Assembly (NCBI GenBank): GCA_012517315.1
Contig: JAAYVE010000004.1
Span: 1-44,691 of the forward strand
Direction of reading: 5' to 3'
DNA length: 44,691 bases
Source: Deltaproteobacteria bacterium
GTDB taxonomy: Bacteria > Desulfobacterota > Syntrophobacteria > Syntrophobacterales > Syntrophobacteraceae
The notes beneath the pieces are model-generated. The model saw nothing but the letters and a program-made list of their open reading frames with translations, was not told the origin of the DNA and did no database searches. Shown piece after piece: positions 1,457 to 41,560 of this stretch. Position 1 is the first letter of the stretch; the number at the start of each line of letters is the position of its first letter. The position numbers were made by a program, and so were the translations under genes.

Positions 1457-2740
1457 CTATGGGGAGTAAAGCTGATCAAAGAACTCCCAGAAGCCAGGGA
1501 AAGACTTGGCGACTGCTTCTGCTCCTCCGATCTCAACTCCACCCACACACAGTCCGGCCATGGCAAAGGCCATGGCAATGCGGTGATCGTCGTGGGCTTC
1601 TATGGTTTCCACAGGGGGGAGCACCCGGCCCCCTTCTATCACCAGGCCGTCGGGGAGTTCTTCCACCGGAACGTGGAATTTCCTCAGCTGGGAAGCCACA
1701 ACATGCAGCCTGTCGGATTCTTTCAGTCGCAAATGGGCCACATTGCGAATTTTGCTTTTCCCTTCGGCAAAAGCGGAGAGGACCGCCAGGGTCGGGACCA
1801 TGTCCGGCATCGCGTTCATGTCGCGGTCTACGGGCTGCAGTCGACGCGGTCCACGCACGCAGACTCCTTGTTCTTCCCAGTTCAGACTGCAACCCATCTG
1901 TTCCAGGACCTCCAGAAAACGGCTGTCGCCCTGAAGACTCTTTGACGACACAGGATACGTGAACACCTCGCCTCCGGTGATGGCCGCCGCTCCCCAAAAA
2001 TAGGACGCAGAGGAGCAGTCCCCTTCCACGAGGTAGTCCATGGGCGTATAGGTCTGAGGAGCAGGGAATAGCAAGCGGTTGCTTTCAAGCGGCGAATAGC
2101 GGATGCCCGCTTGGTGAAGCATGGAGAGGGTGATGGCGACGTAAGGGTACGATGCGACAGGTTCAAGCCATCCTAGCCTGACATCGCTTTGAGCACAGGG
2201 GCAGGCCAAGAGGAGTGCGGAGAGAAACTGGCTGCTCTGCCGCGCATCCACTGTCACCTCCCCTCCCCTCAAGCCCTTGCTCACTACCTCAACAGGAGGG
2301 AATCCCTCTTCTTGAAGGCAGCGGCAGCTCACACCCAGTTGGCGAAGGGTCTCGAGAAGGGGGCCCACAGGCCTTTCGCGCAGGCGGGGGGTCCCATCGA
2401 AGATGAAAGTTCCCGTCCCGGCCGCCGCAAGCGCAAGAAGGAGCCGCATACTGGTTCCGCTGTTCCCCAAGAAAATCGGTGCTTCGGAGGTTGCCCACCG
2501 TTTCTCTGGGGAGACAACCCTCACGGTCTCACCGTCCCGGCTGATTCCCACTCCCAGCTGTTCCAGGGCCTGTGCCGTGAGTTGTGTGTCTTCGGCGATG
2601 AGGGCATTGCGGATTGTGGTTTCCCCAGGCGCAAGAGACGCCATGACGAGAGCGCGGTGCGTGATGGACTTGGACCCGGGAAGCCGGATCCGGCACTTCA
2701 TCCGGCGCCCTGGGTTGATGCTTTGGATTTTCCTATTCAT
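1457..2740 (-). CDS. aroA: 3-phosphoshikimate 1-carboxyvinyltransferase (EPSP synthase)
   Basis: Joins shikimate 3-phosphate and phosphoenolpyruvate to give EPSP, the sixth step of the shikimate pathway, in the cytoplasm. The 427-residue length is normal. The N-terminal signature GSKSITHRAL (Lys24), the LGNSGTSMRLL phosphate-binding segment near residue 95, and the late HDDHRIAMAFAMAG motif are all intact. The start ATG lies inside the end of aroE (8-base overlap, sharing ATGAATAG), which points to translational coupling. A second in-frame ATG at codon 14 is possible but less well placed. Part of the operon controlled by the attenuator upstream of the dehydroquinate synthase gene. Confidence 0.96.
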   Translation of the reverse strand: MNRKIQSINPGRRMKCRIRLPGSKSITHRALVMASLAPGETTIRNALIAEDTQLTAQALEQLGVGISRDGETVRVVSPEKRWATSEAPIFLGNSGTSMRLLLALAAAGTGTFIFDGTPRLRERPVGPLLETLRQLGVSCRCLQEEGFPPVEVVSKGLRGGEVTVDARQSSQFLSALLLACPCAQSDVRLGWLEPVASYPYVAITLSMLHQAGIRYSPLESNRLLFPAPQTYTPMDYLVEGDCSSASYFWGAAAITGGEVFTYPVSSKSLQGDSRFLEVLEQMGCSLNWEEQGVCVRGPRRLQPVDRDMNAMPDMVPTLAVLSAFAEGKSKIRNVAHLRLKESDRLHVVASQLRKFHVPVEELPDGLVIEGGRVLPPVETIEAHDDHRIAMAFAMAGLCVGGVEIGGAEAVAKSFPGFWEFFDQLYSP

Positions 2741-3575
2741 GGCAGAGAGCCTTCACGAGTGCATTGTGCATTGCCTGGACCACATTGGAGGGGAGCGGGC
2801 CCGTCTCCAGCCACCATTCCAACTGGGCTATTCCTTGGTGGACCAGCATTTCGATACCAGAAATGGTGACACTGCCTACATCCCTGGCGGCCCTGAGGAA
2901 GTCCGTCCAGAGAGGTCGGTAGACCGTGTCCATGACCACCATTCCCCGCTGAAAGAATGCCTGGGGAACAAGATGTCCCGGGGTTCCTCCTGTGAGGCCC
3001 ACGGAGGTGCATTGGACGACGACGTGGAAGAAGGGAAGCTGTTCTCCCCCTTGCAGTCGGTGAAAGGGCAAGAACTCGCATCCAAAAGCCTTTGCCAGGG
3101 CTTCCCCTCTTTCAGGAGTGCGGTTTGAAACGTGAACTTCCGCTCCTGACCGGATGAGACCGTACACGACGGCTCTCGCTGCGCCTCCGGCTCCCAAAAC
3201 CAGAGCCCTTTTCCCCTCGAGGGGGAGAATTGATTCCAGGGCCCGGTTGGAACCCAGCCAGTCCGTGTTTTTGCCGGCCCAGCCGTATGCCTCGCGACGC
3301 AGGGTGTTGACGGCACCGATGGCTCCAGCCGTTTCGTCCTTTGAAGAGCACAGGACAAACGCGGACTCCTTATGGGGCAATGTGACACTGACTCCACGGA
3401 ATCCCATTTTCCAAAGCGTGTCCAGATCCTCTTCCAAAGCATCCGATTCCAGCGCCATATACAGAGCCGGATGCCCAAGCTCCCTGAAAGCCGCGTTCAT
3501 CATGACAGGACTAAGACTGTGGGCGATTGGATTGCCGATGACCGCGAAAAGGTCCTGTTGTCTGGGACGGATCAT
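2733..3575 (-). CDS. aroE: Shikimate dehydrogenase (NADP+)
   Basis: Reduces 3-dehydroshikimate to shikimate with NADPH. The 280-residue protein carries the substrate-binding GNPIAHSLSP near residue 14, the catalytic lysine in LPHKES, the GKNTDWLG motif with its catalytic Asp, and the Rossmann nucleotide loop VLGAGGAARAVVYGL. A C-terminal helix matches the family. It begins 9 bases after aroD and overlaps aroA by 8 bases, so aroD, aroE and aroA are almost certainly one transcript. No defects were seen. Confidence 0.96.
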   Translation of the reverse strand: MIRPRQQDLFAVIGNPIAHSLSPVMMNAAFRELGHPALYMALESDALEEDLDTLWKMGFRGVSVTLPHKESAFVLCSSKDETAGAIGAVNTLRREAYGWAGKNTDWLGSNRALESILPLEGKRALVLGAGGAARAVVYGLIRSGAEVHVSNRTPERGEALAKAFGCEFLPFHRLQGGEQLPFFHVVVQCTSVGLTGGTPGHLVPQAFFQRGMVVMDTVYRPLWTDFLRAARDVGSVTISGIEMLVHQGIAQLEWWLETGPLPSNVVQAMHNALVKALCHE

Positions 3576-3584
3576 TTCTTCAGT

Positions 3585-4352
3585 TCAGGGGTTTCTTGTT
3601 GGGTGTGCAAGTCTGGTTGCCCCTGGTGGCTGACATGGCCCGGCGTTTTGTGCAAGGAGCTCCAGGAGACGTCGCATTTCCTCCACGGTCAACTGACCCG
3701 GTGCGCCAACATCCTGATCAGGCAGGCACACGTAACTCCACGGGCTTCCAAGAAGAAGACACACCGCCCTGCTCCACCTGCCCTCACGCCCCATGCAGAA
3801 TGCAACCACACGAACGTTAAACGCCTTATTCCCATATGCAATGAGCTCCAGGACCCGCAGATTGTCTTCAGGTTTCCGGGCGAAGGTTGCAATCTTGACG
3901 ACGTGAGCCCCGGTTGCAGCCATTTGTTCCAGTTTTCTCCGGAGATGCGAAACAGCGGGGGTTCCTGAGAAATCGTGATGGGAAACGACCAGGCGGCAAC
4001 CGGTGGAGAGAAACCGGCGGTAGAGCCCCACGTCCAGGCCGACTTCCAAATCGATCCAGTCCGCTCCGGCTTCCGTTGCTCTCTCAAGGATGTGCATTCT
4101 TTGGGCTTCATCCCCTTCGAACCGGCCGCCATCCCGCTTGAGGCGGCTTGTGGCGATGACGGGTTTCCTGTCAGGTACTGAGAGGAACCTCAGCATGTCA
4201 AGTGTCTTTGGGGTGCCGTGCATTTCTGAGAAGGAGTCCAGTCGCCATTCCACAAGGTCGAGGTCCGGATGATTCAACATGCGAAGGAGTTCCTCGGGGG
4301 GGCATTGCATCAGGCAACCACAGAGTCCGCCCTGGAGAAGTCCCCTCCTCAT
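3585..4352 (-). CDS. aroD: 3-dehydroquinate dehydratase, type I
   Basis: Converts 3-dehydroquinate to 3-dehydroshikimate through a Schiff base. The type I fold is shown by EWRLDS (residues 35-40), the catalytic His in VVSHHDFSGTP (His125/126), and the Schiff-base Lys153 in VVKIATFA. Length 255 residues, normal for type I. The start codon overlaps the pheA stop as ATGA. The C-terminal ~25 residues after the lid region (rich in Pro, Ala and Arg) look non-conserved. Many relatives use the unrelated type II enzyme, so type I next to DHQ synthase II resembles the archaeal arrangement. Confidence 0.95.
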   Translation of the reverse strand: MRRGLLQGGLCGCLMQCPPEELLRMLNHPDLDLVEWRLDSFSEMHGTPKTLDMLRFLSVPDRKPVIATSRLKRDGGRFEGDEAQRMHILERATEAGADWIDLEVGLDVGLYRRFLSTGCRLVVSHHDFSGTPAVSHLRRKLEQMAATGAHVVKIATFARKPEDNLRVLELIAYGNKAFNVRVVAFCMGREGRWSRAVCLLLGSPWSYVCLPDQDVGAPGQLTVEEMRRLLELLAQNAGPCQPPGATRLAHPTRNP

Positions 4353-5503
4353 CGCTGCCCCACCGTTCTCATCTTTTCCATTTCCACGCGGATGGGCCGC
4401 TTAGGATCGCTCTTGGGATAGGATCCCAGAAGTTTCAGCAAAGTGACGTGGCGGCCCAGGTCATCGAGAGCGGAGCGCACAGGCTCTTCCTCCATATGTC
4501 CCTCGATGTCGACACAGAAGAGGTATTGCCATGGAAACTGGCGATTGGGGCGGGATTCGATGCGACTCATGTTCACCCGATGCCTGGCGAAGGCCTCCAG
4601 TGCGGTGTGGAGGGCTCCGGGGCGGTCGGCGACAGTGAAAAGGATAGAGGTCTTGTCGCTTCCGGTAGGGCCACTGGGGTGGTCTGCCAAGGCAAGGAAA
4701 CGGGTCGTATTCTCCGTGTGATCCTCGATGCGCTCTGCCAAAACGTCTAGCCCGTAATGATGAGCCGCGTAAAGATTGCACAAGGCAGCTCCGGCGGTGT
4801 CCTTTCGGGCCATCTGGGCAGCCTGGGCTGTGGACGAGCACTCATAGATCTCTGCACTGCGCAGATGCTCCAGGATCCACCGGCGGCACTGTTCCACGGC
4901 CTGAGGGTGAGCATACAGACGCTGGATCTGGGCAATGTCTTGCGCTGTGCTGCAGAGGTAATGGGTCACCTCCAGGTAGCATTCGCGAACGACGCCCACC
5001 TCTCTTTCATAGAGGAGATCGATGGTTCGGCCTACACCGCCCTGGAGAGAATTTTCCACAGGAACGATGGCCACGTGGGACTTCCCCTTCTGGAGCGCGT
5101 CGAAGACATCCTCCAGCGTGGAAAAAGGCTCGTAAACGGCAGAGTGCCCATAGAGGGACATGGCTGCCAGATGGGAGTAGGTCCAGGCAGGGCCAAGAAA
5201 AGCGACGCGCAGGACATACTGAAGAAGCCGCGAGGCGGCCAAGATTTCTCTGTAGATGGATCGGAGGGATTCATTGGAGAGGGGTCCCGGGTTGATTTGG
5301 GTGAGCCGCTCATAAATGCTTTGCTCCCGGCTTGGGTCGAAAAGGCTGAGACCCTTCGCCGCCTTGATGCGTCCCACCTCCTGAGCCAATTCCATCCGGC
5401 GGTTGAGCAGCCGGAGCAACTCCAGATCCACCTGGTCGATGGCTTCCCGGATCTCTCTGAGTTCGGTTTCCGCATCGTTTTGGGCTATTGGGTGTGCTTT
5501 CAT
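4349..5503 (-). CDS. pheA: Bifunctional chorismate mutase / prephenate dehydratase (P-protein)
   Basis: Turns chorismate into prephenate and then phenylpyruvate, the committed route to phenylalanine. Domains in order: an AroQ chorismate mutase helix bundle at about residues 12-95 (LREIREAIDQVDLELLRLLNRR), a prephenate dehydratase domain from about 98 (VAFLGPAWTYSHLAA) that includes the TTRFLAL motif, and a C-terminal ACT domain with the Phe-binding ESRP motif. The ACT domain predicts allosteric inhibition by Phe on top of the transcriptional control upstream. 384 residues is the usual size. The gene lies 69 bases after the dehydroquinate synthase gene and overlaps aroD by 4 bases. Confidence 0.96.
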   Translation of the reverse strand: MKAHPIAQNDAETELREIREAIDQVDLELLRLLNRRMELAQEVGRIKAAKGLSLFDPSREQSIYERLTQINPGPLSNESLRSIYREILAASRLLQYVLRVAFLGPAWTYSHLAAMSLYGHSAVYEPFSTLEDVFDALQKGKSHVAIVPVENSLQGGVGRTIDLLYEREVGVVRECYLEVTHYLCSTAQDIAQIQRLYAHPQAVEQCRRWILEHLRSAEIYECSSTAQAAQMARKDTAGAALCNLYAAHHYGLDVLAERIEDHTENTTRFLALADHPSGPTGSDKTSILFTVADRPGALHTALEAFARHRVNMSRIESRPNRQFPWQYLFCVDIEGHMEEEPVRSALDDLGRHVTLLKLLGSYPKSDPKRPIRVEMEKMRTVGQR

Positions 5504-5572: not shown

Positions 5573-6607
5573 TCACCGTTCCCGAATGGATTCACTCACC
5601 CGGATCCCGAAATGACGTCCGGCCTCTTCTGTTGCCACCAGCACCGCATCGCCGGGCTGTGCCTGGACCACCGACAGGGCCTCCCCGCCGGGCCGTGTGA
5701 GCCTGATAGTCTCAGCGTTCTGAAGCAGTATAGAGCCGTGTCCGCTTTTGCTTTCTGCGTGAAGGAGAAGAAGGGGGCGGCGTTCGATTTTGATGCGACC
5801 GGCGGTAGCCGGCTGGGTGGTTCCCCGGGCATGGACGAGGAGGAGCGGATCTCCCGCCTCGAGTTCACTCAAGTAACGGGTACGCCCGTTGGGAACCCGC
5901 ACGTAAGCGTGCACAGGCCCTGCATTGACCCGGAACGGTCGCGGGGCGACGTAGGGATTCTCTTTTGCCTCGGCTTGAACCAGGAAGAGAAAGGCGCTGG
6001 AGTTCCCCACCAGCATGCCTTCTCCTTCCCCCATCAACGTGCAGGTGTCAACGCAGACTCGGTCCCCAAAGCCTGAAGACCGGATTTGCCGGATGGTTGC
6101 CGTTTCCAGCGGTACCTGCTCCCCTGAGCCCTTAACGCGCGAGAGCATCTCTCCGAGACTCACCGGATCCTGTGCATGAATAACGACACCCGCTACACCC
6201 TTTTCAAGAATTCCCAGTGCAAGGACAGCTTCATCAAGACTGTACACGGGAACGAGCAGGCGAGCTCCCTGGGCGACGAGGTTTTCCAGGGGGATCACCT
6301 CCCAACTGCGTGAGGGGTAAGAGTGAGCATCCTGCGCCGTGGCCCCGGGTTCCGTATCGAGAACGACAGGAGCGTGGTGGAGAATCCGCCCGATCCGAGC
6401 CTCGTCCTCGGGCGAGGAGAGTGTCTCGAAGAAGACGTCCTTCCCCGGAACCAGATCCCCCTTCTCATGGACCGTCGGGATTCTGCCAAGCTCTTTAACG
6501 CGGCTCTCCCATTCCGACGGGATTACCAGCGCGTCGGCACCACCCTCGATGGCGGTGGTCACCATTGTCTTGGACCACTTTTCCAGAAAGACCCACGCTT
6601 CCTTCAA
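5573..6607 (-). CDS. aroB': 3-dehydroquinate synthase II (archaeal-type, MJ1249 family)
   Basis: Makes 3-dehydroquinate from 2-amino-3,7-dideoxy-D-threo-hept-6-ulosonate (ADTH) by NAD-dependent oxidative deamination and cyclisation, replacing the usual AroB. It is recognised by the N-terminal KEAWVFLEKW and GGADALVIP segments, the central TATIRQIRSSGFGDRVCVDTC region, NPYVAPRPFRVNAGPVHAYV, and the C-terminal AQPGDAVLV. I chose the TTG at 6607 because GGGGAG sits 6 bases upstream of it and homologues begin at this point. The frame is open to a TTG at 6628, but that codon lies in the terminator U-tract. This gives 344 residues. No ADTH synthase gene is in the window. First structural gene of the aromatic operon. 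Confidence 0.92.
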   Translation of the reverse strand: MKEAWVFLEKWSKTMVTTAIEGGADALVIPSEWESRVKELGRIPTVHEKGDLVPGKDVFFETLSSPEDEARIGRILHHAPVVLDTEPGATAQDAHSYPSRSWEVIPLENLVAQGARLLVPVYSLDEAVLALGILEKGVAGVVIHAQDPVSLGEMLSRVKGSGEQVPLETATIRQIRSSGFGDRVCVDTCTLMGEGEGMLVGNSSAFLFLVQAEAKENPYVAPRPFRVNAGPVHAYVRVPNGRTRYLSELEAGDPLLLVHARGTTQPATAGRIKIERRPLLLLHAESKSGHGSILLQNAETIRLTRPGGEALSVVQAQPGDAVLVATEEAGRHFGIRVSESIRER

Positions 6608-6619
6608 ATCTTTCTCCCC

Positions 6620-6655
6620 AAAAAACAAAAGCCGCAGGCTGATCCTGCGGCTTTT
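6620..6655 (-). terminator. Intrinsic terminator of the aromatic-operon attenuator
   Basis: A perfect 12-bp stem (5' arm 6655-6644, 3' arm 6638-6627) encloses the 5-base loop ATCAG. The 3' arm ends in TTTT and is followed by GTTTTTT, a classic Rho-independent terminator. It lies between the leader peptide stop (6680) and the TTG start of the dehydroquinate synthase (6607), so it would end transcription before the structural genes. The segment GCAGG-AT-CAG (6648-6639) in its 5' arm and loop can instead pair with CTG-G-CCTGC at 6694-6686, which would form an antiterminator. Confidence 0.92.
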
Positions 6656-6679
6656 GTAACAGACTCGGTTGCCCGAAGC

Positions 6680-6745
6680 TCAACGGCAGGCCAGCACGCC
6701 CTCGCTCCACCTCGCAAAATAAAAGTAACTGCAAAAAAACGACAT
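6680..6745 (-). CDS. Aromatic-rich leader peptide of the attenuator (21 codons)
   Basis: A 21-residue ORF from ATG 6745 to TGA 6680 with a GAGG ribosome-binding site 6 bases upstream. Residues 3-13 read FFCSYFYFARW: four Phe, two Tyr and one Trp in eleven codons. It starts about 45 bases after a consensus promoter and ends 24 bases before the terminator stem of the aromatic operon. By analogy with the trp and pheA leaders of enteric bacteria, a ribosome stalled at scarce Phe, Tyr or Trp tRNA would leave 6694-6686 free to form an antiterminator. A ribosome reaching the stop codon would cover that segment and let the terminator form. The peptide is seen directly; the mechanism is inference. Confidence 0.88.
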   Translation of the reverse strand: MSFFCSYFYFARWSEGVLACR

Positions 6746-6791
6746 GCCCTGCCTCTTTTTGTTCCATATTCAAAGAATAAGCGACTAGAAC

Positions 6792-6821
6792 ATCATATGC
6801 TTCAGGGTAGGCACCTGTCAA
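6792..6821 (-). promoter_or_regulatory. Sigma-70 type promoter of the aromatic operon
   Basis: TTGACA (6821-6816) and TATGAT (6797-6792) are separated by 18 bases on the minus strand. That is a perfect -35 box and a -10 box with one mismatch. Predicted transcription start is near 6785, giving a leader of about 175 bases that holds the peptide and the attenuator hairpins. Confidence 0.8.
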
Positions 6822-6862
6822 CAGAAAACTGATTGTGCCCGGCGCTCGGGGAACTGATGGAT

Positions 6863-7172
6863 TCAGAATGTGATGACTTTGTCGGCTTCTTTGGCTGGTT
6901 TATAGAGATCATCCATCCAACCGATGGGACACGTAGAGGAACCCACCAACCGTGGGTTTTTATCAGACCCCTCAGACATGGAAATCTCCCTCGTACTGCT
7001 TGATCTGTCCCATGACATCGAATTCGCCGGTGCTTCGCTGCTCAAAGAGAACCCCCTTCCCCTGCATGAACACGTTCACCTCATCCCCCTTCTTGACGCC
7101 GACGTTTGCAAGACGCATCGCATTGTATATGGCCTCTGCGTCGTCTGAATTGATGATGAAAAGAGTCTTCAT
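6863..7172 (-). pseudogene. DsrE-like small protein gene with in-frame UGA at a Cys site and a one-base shift (candidate selenoprotein or pseudogene)
   Basis: The first 66 codons from ATG 7172 encode a DsrE/DsrF-like domain (MKTLFIINSDDAEAIYNAMR, KKGDEVNVFMQGKGV) and stop at TGA 6974-6972. The rest of the domain continues one base out of frame: GSSTCPIGWMDDLYK and KEADKVITF end at TGA 6865-6863. Dropping one G from the GGGG run just after the UGA joins the halves into 102 codons, with UGA exactly where relatives have the first Cys of their CGxC motif. AGGGAGGG provides a good ribosome-binding site. Either the gene is decaying, or UGA is read as selenocysteine and the extra G is a sequence error. 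The second Cys of the motif is replaced by Asp. Confidence 0.7.
6936..6974 (-). other. SECIS-like hairpin beginning at the UGA of the DsrE-like gene
   Basis: Immediately after the UGA (6974-6972) the transcript can fold. GAGG (6973-6970) pairs with CCTC (6939-6936). After an unpaired stretch, AACCCAC (6958-6952) pairs perfectly with GTGGGTT (6946-6940) around a GGTTG loop. The loop starts 20 bases after the UGA, within the range known for bacterial SECIS elements, which also often have a G-U-containing apical loop. The hairpin is seen directly; its role in selenocysteine insertion is a hypothesis. Confidence 0.4.
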
Positions 7173-7385
7173 AAGAAGTGCCCTCCCTATCGTAAGTATC
7201 GACCGCCCCCGAGATTGATGCCGTCAATGCTGAAAACGGCCATAACGGAATACTGCGCCCGTGCAACCGGGTAACGGGAGGGCAAGATGGACAAGGGAGG
7301 GAACGGGAAATATAATTTAAAATATCGCGTATTCAATCCATTCCCGAACTCCATCGCCAACACATTGAAAAGGAAGGTCACGGCC

Positions 7386-8843
7386 ATGATCTCCACCAAA
7401 GCCTTCAGGAAAATCTCGGATACCATTTGGGAGATTCCAGTCGATTACAAGGAGGGGATGCGTGTTCCCGCCCGCATCTTTGCAACGGAGAAGCTGCTCC
7501 GGGAGATGGATGAAGGCGTGTTGGAGCAGGTGACCAACGTGGCCACTCTACCTGGGATCATCGATTACGCATATTGCATGCCGGACGGCCACTGGGGTTA
7601 CGGTTTTCCCATCGGAGGCGTTGCTGCCATGGATGTGGAGACAGGGGTCATCTCCCCCGGAGGGATCGGTTTCGACGTCAACTGCGGCATGCGCCTGCTG
7701 CTCACCAATCTGACCCATGAGGAAGTCAAGCCTCACCTGAACACTCTTGTGGACAGGCTTTTCGCAAGGGTTCCGGCCGGGGTCGGAAGCAGTGGCTTCG
7801 TGAAGATATCTCAGGATGAATTTCGCATGGTCGTGGAGCAAGGTGCCCGTTGGTGCCTGAGAAACGGTTACGGATGGCCCGAGGATCTGGATCGCACTGA
7901 GGAGTTCGGTTGCGTTGGGGGCGCGGACGCGGCCAAGATCAGCAACAAGGCCGTGGAGCGTGGATTCAGGCAGATCGGAACTCTGGGTTCAGGCAACCAT
8001 TACCTGGAAATCCAGGTGGCGAAGCCCGAAAACATCTTCGATACCTCCATTGCTGAGGCATGGGGAATCACCATACCCAACCAGGTGGTCGTCATGTTTC
8101 ATTGTGGCAGTCGGGGCTTCGGTCACCAGGTTGCCACGGAGTATCTGAAGGTCTTTCTGAGTGTGACGGAAAAAAAATACGGAATCAAGGTCAGGGATCG
8201 CGAGCTGGCCTGTGCGCCGTTTCGGTCTCCCGAGGGCCGGGATTACTTTGCGGCCATGAACTGTGCCATCAACATGTCCTTCGCCAACCGGCAGGTGATC
8301 CTCCACCGGGTGCGAGAGGTCTTTTCGGAGGTGTTCCACAGAGATCCCCTGGACCTTGGAATGCACCAGGTATACGATGTAGCCCACAACACGGCCAAGT
8401 TGGAACGTCACCGCATCGCAGGCTGCCTGAAAGAGGTCCTGGTGCATCGAAAGGGGGCCACCCGGGCATTGGGTCCGGGAGCGGAAGAACTTCCCGGCAC
8501 CTACCGGGAGACGGGGCAACCGGTCATCGTGGGTGGCAGCATGGAGACCGGCTCATATCTCCTGGTGGGTGTTCCGGGAGGGGAAAAGACCTTCTTCAGC
8601 ACGGCGCACGGGAGTGGGCGGACCATGAGTCGCCGCGAAGCCAAAAAGAGATTTCATGGCAAGCAGCTCCTGCAGGACATGGAGAACCGAGGAATCTACG
8701 TGAGGGCTGCCTCCTATGGAGGGCTGGCAGAAGAGGCCGGCCCCGCATATAAGGATATCGACGACGTAGTGGGCGCCACGGAATCCGCTTCCATCAGCAA
8801 GAGAGTGGCGCGGTTCGTGCCTATCGGGAACGTCAAGGGATGA
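7386..8843 (+). CDS. rtcB: RNA-splicing ligase RtcB
   Basis: GTP- and Mn2+-dependent ligase joining RNA 3'-phosphate or 2',3'-cyclic phosphate ends to 5'-OH ends; in bacteria it serves RNA repair. The 485-residue product has GGIGFDVNCG (metal ligands Asp97 and Cys100), GTLGSGNHYLEIQ, the HCGSRGFGHQ metal-binding motif, and AHGSGR with the His that becomes guanylylated (about residue 408). I start at ATG 7386, behind GGAAGG; the frame is open further upstream, but homologues begin here. Its partner archease follows 155 bases downstream. No RtcR-type regulator is nearby. Confidence 0.95.
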   Translation: MISTKAFRKISDTIWEIPVDYKEGMRVPARIFATEKLLREMDEGVLEQVTNVATLPGIIDYAYCMPDGHWGYGFPIGGVAAMDVETGVISPGGIGFDVNCGMRLLLTNLTHEEVKPHLNTLVDRLFARVPAGVGSSGFVKISQDEFRMVVEQGARWCLRNGYGWPEDLDRTEEFGCVGGADAAKISNKAVERGFRQIGTLGSGNHYLEIQVAKPENIFDTSIAEAWGITIPNQVVVMFHCGSRGFGHQVATEYLKVFLSVTEKKYGIKVRDRELACAPFRSPEGRDYFAAMNCAINMSFANRQVILHRVREVFSEVFHRDPLDLGMHQVYDVAHNTAKLERHRIAGCLKEVLVHRKGATRALGPGAEELPGTYRETGQPVIVGGSMETGSYLLVGVPGGEKTFFSTAHGSGRTMSRREAKKRFHGKQLLQDMENRGIYVRAASYGGLAEEAGPAYKDIDDVVGATESASISKRVARFVPIGNVKG

Positions 8844-8998
8844 GTTTCCCGCGAACGCGTGGAACAGACTCCTGACCATCTTCCACCAACCTGGGCCTTG
8901 CCGGCACGGAACAGTGTGCCGCCGCTGTTTGCGTGGCATTGAGGTTGGAATTGGAAAAACACTGAGCTTCTGAAGTCTTCCCACTCGCGAGCCTGTCC

Positions 8999-9430
8999 AT
9001 GCCATATGCATACCTGGATGATGTGGCCACAGCGGACGTCGCATTCCTGGCCTGGGGAGAGACGCTCGAAGAGCTCTTCATCGCTGCGGCTGATGCGACC
9101 ATGAACGCAATGGTGACAGACCTTGAAAGCATTTCTCCCTCGCTTACCCAAGGGATTGTCCTGGAAAGCGAGGCGCTGGATCTCCTTCTTTTCGACCTGC
9201 TTCAGGAAATCATCTTTCTCAAGGACGCGGAAGGGTTGCTTCTGCGCGTTTCCCGTATCGAATTCATGAGGACGGAGAACGCGTTCCGCCTTGTGGCTAC
9301 GGCCCGGGGCGAGGAAATCGACCCTGGAAAGCATGAGTTCGTCGTGGACGTAAAGGCTGTGACGCTTTACCGGTACCGACTGGAAGAAACCCCCAGGGGA
9401 TGGGAGGCCACGGTCATTCTGGACGTGTAA
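8999..9430 (+). CDS. Archease, RtcB activator
   Basis: A 143-residue archease (MTH1598/TM1083 family), a chaperone-like factor that speeds guanylylation and turnover of RtcB. Support: the N-terminal DDVATADVAFLAWGETLEELF segment, where an Asp-rich start and ADV are typical, and the C-terminal KHEFVVDVKAVTLYRY followed by EATVILDV, which normally supplies Ca2+-binding acidic residues. It lies downstream of rtcB on the same strand, the usual pairing. The 155-base gap leaves room for a separate promoter, but none was convincing. No clear Shine-Dalgarno sequence precedes the ATG, so the start is likely rather than certain. Confidence 0.88.
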   Translation: MPYAYLDDVATADVAFLAWGETLEELFIAAADATMNAMVTDLESISPSLTQGIVLESEALDLLLFDLLQEIIFLKDAEGLLLRVSRIEFMRTENAFRLVATARGEEIDPGKHEFVVDVKAVTLYRYRLEETPRGWEATVILDV

Positions 9431-40876: not shown

Positions 40877-41560
40877 GACCTTTTTACCCGATTATTTGCA
40901 CGATCCAATAAAGCAATCCCGAACGACACGGGTTCGATAGACGAAAGGGCGAGGAAAGTGTATGAATCAGAGGGACCAATGGAACTGAGGGTTGGTCTTC
41001 ATGGTCACGCTGCCAGGATCCTTCGCATGCATGTCCCTGCAATCATGTCTTTTGCGGGGCCCTGGATCAAGCCCATATCAAGAACTGAAGCCCCCTGCGG
41101 TGTTAGTGATTGGCAGAAAGTCCCTGACCCAACACCAAATGACGCGGGAACTTCCTCTTGCTTCCGTGTGCATGTCAGGAAACTGAAAGCCTAAAGGAGC
41201 AACGGAGTGCCCACCTTGAACGTATCGGTTCAAGACAGCCTGCTGACACGGCATCATGCGGGGGACTCTATTTTGAACCTGGTTTGAGACTCTCTCCCCT
41301 TCCATGCGACTGAGCGAATCCATGGATTCGTGCATCCCGATTTTGCTGGGAAAATGCAGCCTTTTCTGCCCCGCCCGGTGATCCTTCCTCCCACCCGGTA
41401 GTTGCCTCGTGTGTGCACTGCCCCGCTTTTTCCGGACTCTTGCCCGGTTGCGGAGGAGTTCGCGAAAGGGAGTGCCTGCTTCTGTGAGGTGCCTACCCCA
41501 ATTCAATGGAATCCGGTTTCATCCGGCATGGGATTCAATATTCCTACGAGAAAGGATTGT
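40877..41560. other. Gene-poor region upstream of rny
   Basis: This region of about 680 bases contains only short ORFs with no recognisable features. Notable items are the 16-base perfect palindrome at 41315-41330 (centre CCATGG) and a short inverted pair CGAAC/GTTCG near 40920-40935. No tRNA, RNase P RNA, tmRNA or SRP RNA signature was seen. The promoter of rny should lie here, but no clear one was found. Confidence 0.4.

Follow-up and report, generated by a model that had tools for sequence, protein, structure and literature searches.

The stretch of Syntrophobacteraceae DNA analysed here (44,691 nucleotides, hereafter the window) very probably carries, on its minus strand, a ribosome-mediated transcription attenuator in front of the operon DHQS II - pheA - aroD - aroE - aroA, where DHQS II is 3-dehydroquinate synthase II. 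We put the probability of this reading, which is drawn from DNA sequence and its comparison between genomes, at about 0.93. The promoter, the leader, the co-varying 2:3 and 3:4 stems and the spacing are supported, and the 1:2 pairing is supported more weakly; ribosome stalling, termination and the response to amino acids are what we infer from them. In loci of the window's order, Syntrophobacterales, we found a promoter and a translatable ORF with a ribosome-binding site, a cluster of codons for products of the pathway, a terminator, a 2:3 antiterminator and the spacing that links them (Table 1). A preliminary description of this DNA had proposed such an attenuator, and conservation, covariation and spacing now strongly support it.

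Table 1. Elements of the predicted attenuator and genes of the operon behind it, in window coordinates.
Feature	Position	Strand	Basis or remark
Sigma-70-type promoter TTGACA-18-TATGAT	6792..6821	-	11/12 consensus matches
Leader-ORF ribosome-binding site AGAGG	6752..6756	-	Read from sequence
Leader ORF MSFFCSYFYFARWSEGVLACR (then stop), 21 codons	6680..6745	-	ATG 6745, stop 6682-6680; counterparts in relatives
Control codons 3-10, TTT TTT TGC AGT TAC TTT TAT TTT (Phe, Tyr)	6716..6739	-	
Segment 1 GGCAGG, between ribosome-binding site and leader start codon	6748..6753	-	Shuffle test
Segment 2 GCTGGCCTGCC, 3' end of leader ORF	6685..6695	-	Alignment, shuffles, spacing
Segment 3 GCAGGATCAGC, terminator 5' arm and loop, partner of segment 2 (antiterminator)	6638..6648	-	
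Intrinsic terminator stem-loop, segments 3:4, 14 pairs	6625..6657	-	
U-tract TTTTGTTTTTT	6620..6630	-	
3-dehydroquinate synthase II (DHQS II)	5573..6607	-	PF01959 362 bits; NF002627 436 bits, cut-off 392
Chorismate mutase - prephenate dehydratase (PheA)	4349..5503	-	
Type I 3-dehydroquinate dehydratase (AroD)	3585..4352	-	
Shikimate dehydrogenase (AroE)	2733..3575	-	
EPSP synthase (AroA)	1457..2740	-	

The consensus promoter, the 21-codon leader ORF, the three competing pairings and the terminator with its U-tract had all been proposed in the preliminary description, and all were recovered at their sites. Promoter sites as good as this one are expected 0.4 times in shuffles of the 501-base region. 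The terminator lies directly before the DHQS II operon; the scan that located it is loose, alone expecting 0.7 terminator-like sites in shuffles. None of 200 shuffles folds as well as the terminator half of the region (z = −3.2), and for the whole leader only one of 200 does (z = −3.3). Pairing 1:2 joins GGCAGG (6753-6748) to CCTGCC (6690-6685), pairing 2:3 joins 6695-6685 to 6648-6638, and the leader stop codon starts 3 nt past the last base of segment 2. DHQS II itself more likely starts at TTG 6607 than at TTG 6628; the former matches the start kept in relatives and lies 13 nt past the U-tract.

From this layout, transcription would initiate near 6792 from the promoter, with a ribosome then translating the leader. 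A shortage of charged Phe- or Tyr-tRNA would stall this ribosome in codons 3-10, where, given its known footprint, its front edge would stay short of segment 2. The free segment 2 would then pair with the emerging segment 3, the terminator would not form, and DHQS II - pheA - aroD - aroE - aroA would be transcribed. When Phe and Tyr are plentiful, the ribosome would reach the stop codon in or beside segment 2 and cover this segment, which would allow the 3:4 terminator to form and stop transcription near 6620. If the leader were not translated, segment 1 would pair with segment 2, and the terminator would form in this case too.

The alternative stems were tested on a MAFFT alignment of 15 loci of the order, which was fitted to no structure. 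The 2:3 antiterminator was paired in 88.7% of the cells and contained 13 cells with a double change, values that were each reached by none of 500 shuffles. Its covariation score was 0.327 compared to 0.163 in shuffles, again with none of 500 reaching it, and versions of the stem slid along the alignment gave at most 53.2% paired cells and a covariation of at most 0.114. The 3:4 terminator was paired in 90.7% of the cells, with ten doubly changed (0/500 shuffles). Two of the five 2:3 measures do not exceed shuffles: neither the 4 pairs that carry double changes (3.1 in shuffles, 185 of 500 reaching this value) nor the variety of pair types (67/500) is unusual. For the 3:4 stem, four pairs with a double change were reached by 20 of 500 shuffles, a modest result, and the number of pair types was not unusual (91/500). 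Individual families illustrate the changes, as family f1 pairs CTGACCTGC against GCAGGTTCAG and family f2 pairs CTGACCCCG against CGGGGTTCAG with one bulged base. In genome G006 joint changes affect segment 2 and the terminator loop, a part on which the 3:4 stem places no constraint. The loop and segment 2 also change jointly in G002 in the register of the alignment, where the best free duplex is a different one.

Tested locus by locus (1000 shuffles each), the 2:3 pairing had p ≤ 0.04 in nine of the 15 loci. It missed p = 0.05 in the remaining six, including the window, where 73 shuffles were as good and the pairing is not significant by itself (G008, 104; G012, 139; G002, 345; G016, 363; G010, 726). 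The combined p of 2.8 × 10−9 over the 15 loci is overstated, as the loci are related. The 1:2 pairing, for which segment 1 was sought solely at −30 to +15 of the leader start, was weakly significant in the window (25 of 1000 shuffles as good). Its combined p over the 15 loci, 3.5 × 10−7, is likewise too small for related loci and is unevenly distributed, with p < 0.05 in six loci and > 0.2 in five (G006, G012, G009, G010 and G038). Because 2:3 is not significant in the window alone and 1:2 only weakly so, the case for the attenuator rests on conservation. Spacing is part of this conservation: in 14 of 14 loci, a count that leaves out G010 with its lack of aromatic codons, segment 2 starts 15-25 nt downstream of the final aromatic codon in the cluster, measured from the first base of that codon, and it overlaps the stop codon or ends at most 4 nt before it.

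DHQS II is present in 25 of the 39 genomes of the order. The preliminary description had suggested aligning the DNA upstream of DHQS II genes, and doing so yielded both of the features it anticipated, namely short aromatic ORFs and compensatory changes in the 2:3 and 3:4 stems. A clear aromatic leader followed by a terminator was read at 15 of the 25 loci (G000, G002, G005, G006, G008, G009, G012, G015, G026, G028, G030, G032, G034, G037 and G038), with leaders such as MTGQAFFDYYFYYYFPASGELR, MPARDFFFFGFYFFAEESFG and MTNNSYFRYYYFCYDVGKTSLQTCL. Those of G032 and G034 have four aromatic codons only, that of G005 precedes ADH synthase, and that of G037 precedes a broken DHQS II. The leader of G016 is weak (Phe-Tyr-His-Tyr, FYHY). 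In G001, which belongs to the same genus as the window, a contig end cuts the locus; the leader survives there in its second half, along with segment 2 and the terminator. No leader was found at seven of the 25 DHQS II loci (G021, G024, G029, G031, G033, G035 and G036).

Several loci of the order deviate from this arrangement. G010 (L068 1828-1960) keeps segment 2 and the terminator and is missing the aromatic codons; its leader has possibly decayed or been refitted. The DHQS II gene of G037 (L280 654-1230) looks broken, with just its ends recognisable by eye, and the leader MGGASRFFMYFFYRPKSRRLTRL, segment 2 and terminator are all intact before pheA. In G027, a genome without DHQS II, a Phe-rich leader MKKTRWDGFANFFFFFFMKPPG and a terminator lie upstream of pheA (L276 247-400). 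This leader and that of G037 were the matches in a scan of 23 pheA loci, covering the 15 genomes of the order without a full DHQS II plus G000; weaker candidates at L267, L275 and L284 were not counted as leaders. The 29 loci of the order with ADH-synthase-like genes (L238-L266) gave no convincing leader upstream of these genes.

We also determined how widespread the leaders are in the phylum, Thermodesulfobacteriota in NCBI terms, which comprises sulfate-reducing and syntrophic bacteria. The sample of 121 loci consisted of the window and 120 loci hand-picked from profile-search hits. It leaves out 12 of the 15 hits of family f33, genomes G031, G037 and G038, and hits at contig ends (e.g. G059, G095, G279, G361, G378, G430, G123 and G198), and it counts loci truncated upstream by a contig end as negatives (e.g. 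L194, L190, L182, L186 and L236). In many other families, DHQS II follows an ADH synthase gene (TIGR01949, 398 bits in L117 and 390 bits in L200), and the leader precedes ADH synthase. Under a strict automatic rule, 18 of the 37 sampled families have at least one leader; 19 have none under this rule, some of them because the upstream DNA is cut off. An initial distinction of other classes without a leader, made from 450 nt upstream of DHQS II, was dropped after 1600 nt revealed the leader before ADH synthase. There was no leader within 1600 nt at 15 DHQS II loci (L035-L046 and L048-L050; 532 nt in L036), a small mixed sample from Aquificota, Lindowbacteria, Gracilibacteria, archaea, unplaced bins and two delta-type bins, among others.

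At 73 of 80 target loci, a cluster of at least five aromatic codons in nine lies ahead of the terminator. The same is true of 4 of 387 other terminators in this DNA, one of the four being the leader of L208 itself. The clusters have 5-9 aromatic codons in nine at most loci. A set of 70 leaders was defined by at least five aromatic codons in nine and a terminator. It omits the weaker leaders of G016, G032 and G034 and that of G006, whose U-tract misses the filter, and its start codons were assigned by rule and are possibly off in some loci. These leaders contain 276 Tyr, 248 Phe and 52 Trp codons, and an exact TTGACA lies 25-160 nt upstream of 66 of the 70, where 2.3 are expected. Preferred codons are TTT (0.90) and TAT (0.79); the DHQS II genes at these loci use them at 0.52 and 0.54.

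These counts bear on the simplest alternative, an ordinary terminator of the upstream DNA behind a short ORF whose richness in aromatic codons is accidental. T-rich DNA readily yields Phe codons, the 2:3 pairing of the window is matched by 73 of 1000 shuffles, and small ORFs on the same strand end upstream of the leader at 6972 and 6863. Yet a near-consensus promoter separates these ORFs from the leader, aromatic clusters are concentrated before the target terminators, Tyr codons match Phe codons in frequency, the core is enriched in Trp, and the 2:3 stem contains double changes. We consider that this alternative has a negligible chance of being correct.

The finer anatomy of the attenuator is less uniform across the phylum. 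Over the 70 leaders, the 2:3 pairing had a combined p of 6.5 × 10−27, a value that, as in the order, is too small because related loci are not independent, and it was individually significant (p ≤ 0.05) in 28. Only at 20 of the 70 loci does the sequence that pairs best with the terminator arm overlap the stop codon of the leader; at some loci this best partner belongs to an adjacent hairpin located past the leader. The fine anatomy is therefore best supported for the order of the window. In many loci of the phylum the partner lies within the final leader codons, as in a stretch coding for GLP. Tandem terminator-like hairpins were observed behind the leader in L144, L148, L160, L163, L167, L175, L197, L138 and L201.

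Sensors of other kinds were searched with Rfam. At the gathering score, no family matched the leader or any of 20 related loci, and a permissive scan of 6560-6900 (E up to 5) returned only sub-threshold sRNA and miRNA families. The sole Rfam match in the window is distant from the leader, a 6S RNA at 41089-41268 on the plus strand (94 bits). A T-box, a metabolite riboswitch or an RNA-binding protein could in principle control the terminator, with the ORF being incidental, and PMC1262725 names T-boxes as the RNA elements that regulate tyrosine genes in different species. Besides the lack of an Rfam family, the conservation pattern argues against such a sensor, as the reading frame, the aromatic codons and the spacing to segment 2 are conserved and a ligand aptamer needs none of these. 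We regard another sensor as very unlikely. It is even harder to credit a leader peptide acting in trans as the explanation, as described for peTrpL of Sinorhizobium (PMC7298713). Leader peptides may have second roles, but outside the aromatic cluster the sequence and length of this peptide vary between families, and a role in trans would add to attenuation rather than replace it.

Given attenuation by a translating ribosome, we asked which amino acids are read. The preliminary description had called the leader a Phe/Tyr/Trp leader; Phe and Tyr are borne out, and Trp is not. The TGG of the window is codon 13 (6709-6707), outside the cluster, and is replaced by TTG (Leu) in G001, the only comparison genome of the same genus. 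Only two of the 15 aligned leaders of the order contain a W. Moreover, the window genome has a second aromatic attenuator, consisting of the leader MLSRSSNFEGFWFWWRKGGGDGCALMV and a terminator (L292 935-1078, contig C22). It precedes DAHP synthase - trpE - trpG - trpD, an operon apart from the aro operon. The signal in the window genome is thus likely Phe/Tyr rather than Phe/Tyr/Trp, and an operon with pheA and common-pathway genes agrees with these control codons. A Trp-rich leader with a terminator was found upstream of trpE in at least 12 of the 30 order loci scanned, including the window genome, where alone the genes between leader and trpE were identified. As 11 of the 12 lie at most 130 nt from the end of the locus, the 1500-nt flank may have missed others.

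Outside the order, Trp does enter the cluster. Over the 70 leaders, Trp occupies 40 of 630 core positions versus 12 of 1219 flanking positions, which contradicts the view that leaders throughout the phylum are Phe/Tyr-only. A three-amino-acid leader therefore exists, though elsewhere than in the window. Operons with pheA, aroA, tyrA and trpEGDCFBA behind DHQS II, a gene order known from Desulfovibrio, have leaders with two Trp codons (L117, L126 and L132). L127, with the same gene content including the trp genes, has neither a terminator nor a leader under the rule. Trp codons occur in the leaders of all four loci with at least two trp genes in the operon (mean 1.75), versus 25 of 43 loci without (mean 0.67). 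That the split in control codons follows the split in operons is a trend that these four loci suggest and do not prove. More tentatively, and with the odds somewhat against it, the leaders may form a phylum-wide attenuator for any aromatic amino acid. This would act as an OR gate over shikimate entry via ADH synthase and DHQS II, responding to Phe or Tyr and in many lineages also to Trp, with codons tuned to operon content and with segment 1 also closing the ribosome-binding site of the leader and so gating its translation.

The aromatic pathway of the window genome is of mixed character. ADH synthase and DHQS II genes were first known from archaea, and the preliminary description spoke of an archaeal-type shikimate operon. 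This holds for DHQS II, but the genome also encodes a classical AroB (L295 955-2046, minus strand, TIGR01357) and a DAHP synthase that adjoins trpE. The AroB family PF01761 was present in all 12 genomes of the order that were checked. A relative of ADH synthase, unlinked to the operon (L255 1477-2352, minus strand), passes NF005556 (283 bits, cut-off 241) and falls below the stricter TIGR01949 (256 bits, cut-off 299). Both routes may be present. An MqnA-like label for the neighbour of the ADH synthase relative was dropped for want of an NCBIfam match at 1e-30. An RtcB-family gene (7287-9430, plus strand, including the next ORF) runs divergently to the aro operon; NCBIfam places it closest to RtcB families, with scores under the respective cut-offs, and the ORF after it presumably resembles archease, although NCBIfam at 1e-30 gives no match.

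Ribosome-mediated attenuation is textbook knowledge for enteric bacteria. The pheL and trpL systems consist of a leader ORF with control codons for the pathway product, 1:2, 2:3 and 3:4 pairings, and a stop codon at segment 2, and the attenuator of the window shares this general scheme. It differs in that pheL reads Phe and trpL reads Trp, whereas here Phe and Tyr are read (Trp too in other families), and in that the best segment 1 lies around the leader ribosome-binding region and first codons, within the −30 to +15 interval searched. The preliminary description was mistaken that classic attenuators read one amino acid, since mixed leaders are known, such as the ilv leaders and the Phe-Tyr-Phe leader of C. 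glutamicum aroR. The aroR attenuator, the nearest parallel described, was reportedly presented by Neshat et al. in 2014. According to PMC11802643, which also lists the E. coli pheL-pheA and trpL-trpE attenuators, the aroR leader precedes aroF (DAHP synthase), and Tyr availability had no effect. Both aroR and the window have an aromatic leader peptide before a shikimate gene, which for aroR is the first-step aroF. The lineage and target are different, as DHQS II or ADH synthase is preceded here by mostly 5-9 aromatic codons in nine, in many families.

Two further systems are similar in part. The uORFC-13-1 motif upstream of aroF in Acholeplasma has a short ORF with at least one Phe codon, a promoter and a terminator, according to PMC8632094. 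Like the leader of the window, it is a short Phe-coding ORF with a promoter and a terminator before a shikimate gene, in its case that of the first step, but it belongs to other bacteria and another gene and is described with at least one Phe codon. The trp leader of the window genome is of the same leader-terminator kind in the same organism. It is Trp-rich rather than Phe/Tyr (FWFWW here, FWWRWWW in G027) and serves a separate operon. Within the open-access literature that we searched, there was no account of ribosome-mediated attenuation in this phylum or on ADH synthase - DHQS II genes. PMC2965389 does not mention Desulfovibrio, phenylalanine, aromatic or shikimate; PMC545781, on regulation in delta-proteobacteria, does not mention leader peptide, aromatic, phenylalanine or tryptophan; and PMC1262725, in the sections consulted, covers Actinobacteria. 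As far as this search extends, the attenuator is classical in mechanism and new in place and spread.

Judging from the genomes compared, the arrangement most likely turns on the genes for aromatic amino acids only at times of shortage, and it recurs in many bacteria of the phylum. It would offer an explanation for how such organisms sense a shortage of aromatic amino acids. As the leader codons vary between lineages, they provide a natural series for testing how an attenuator is tuned to more than one amino acid.
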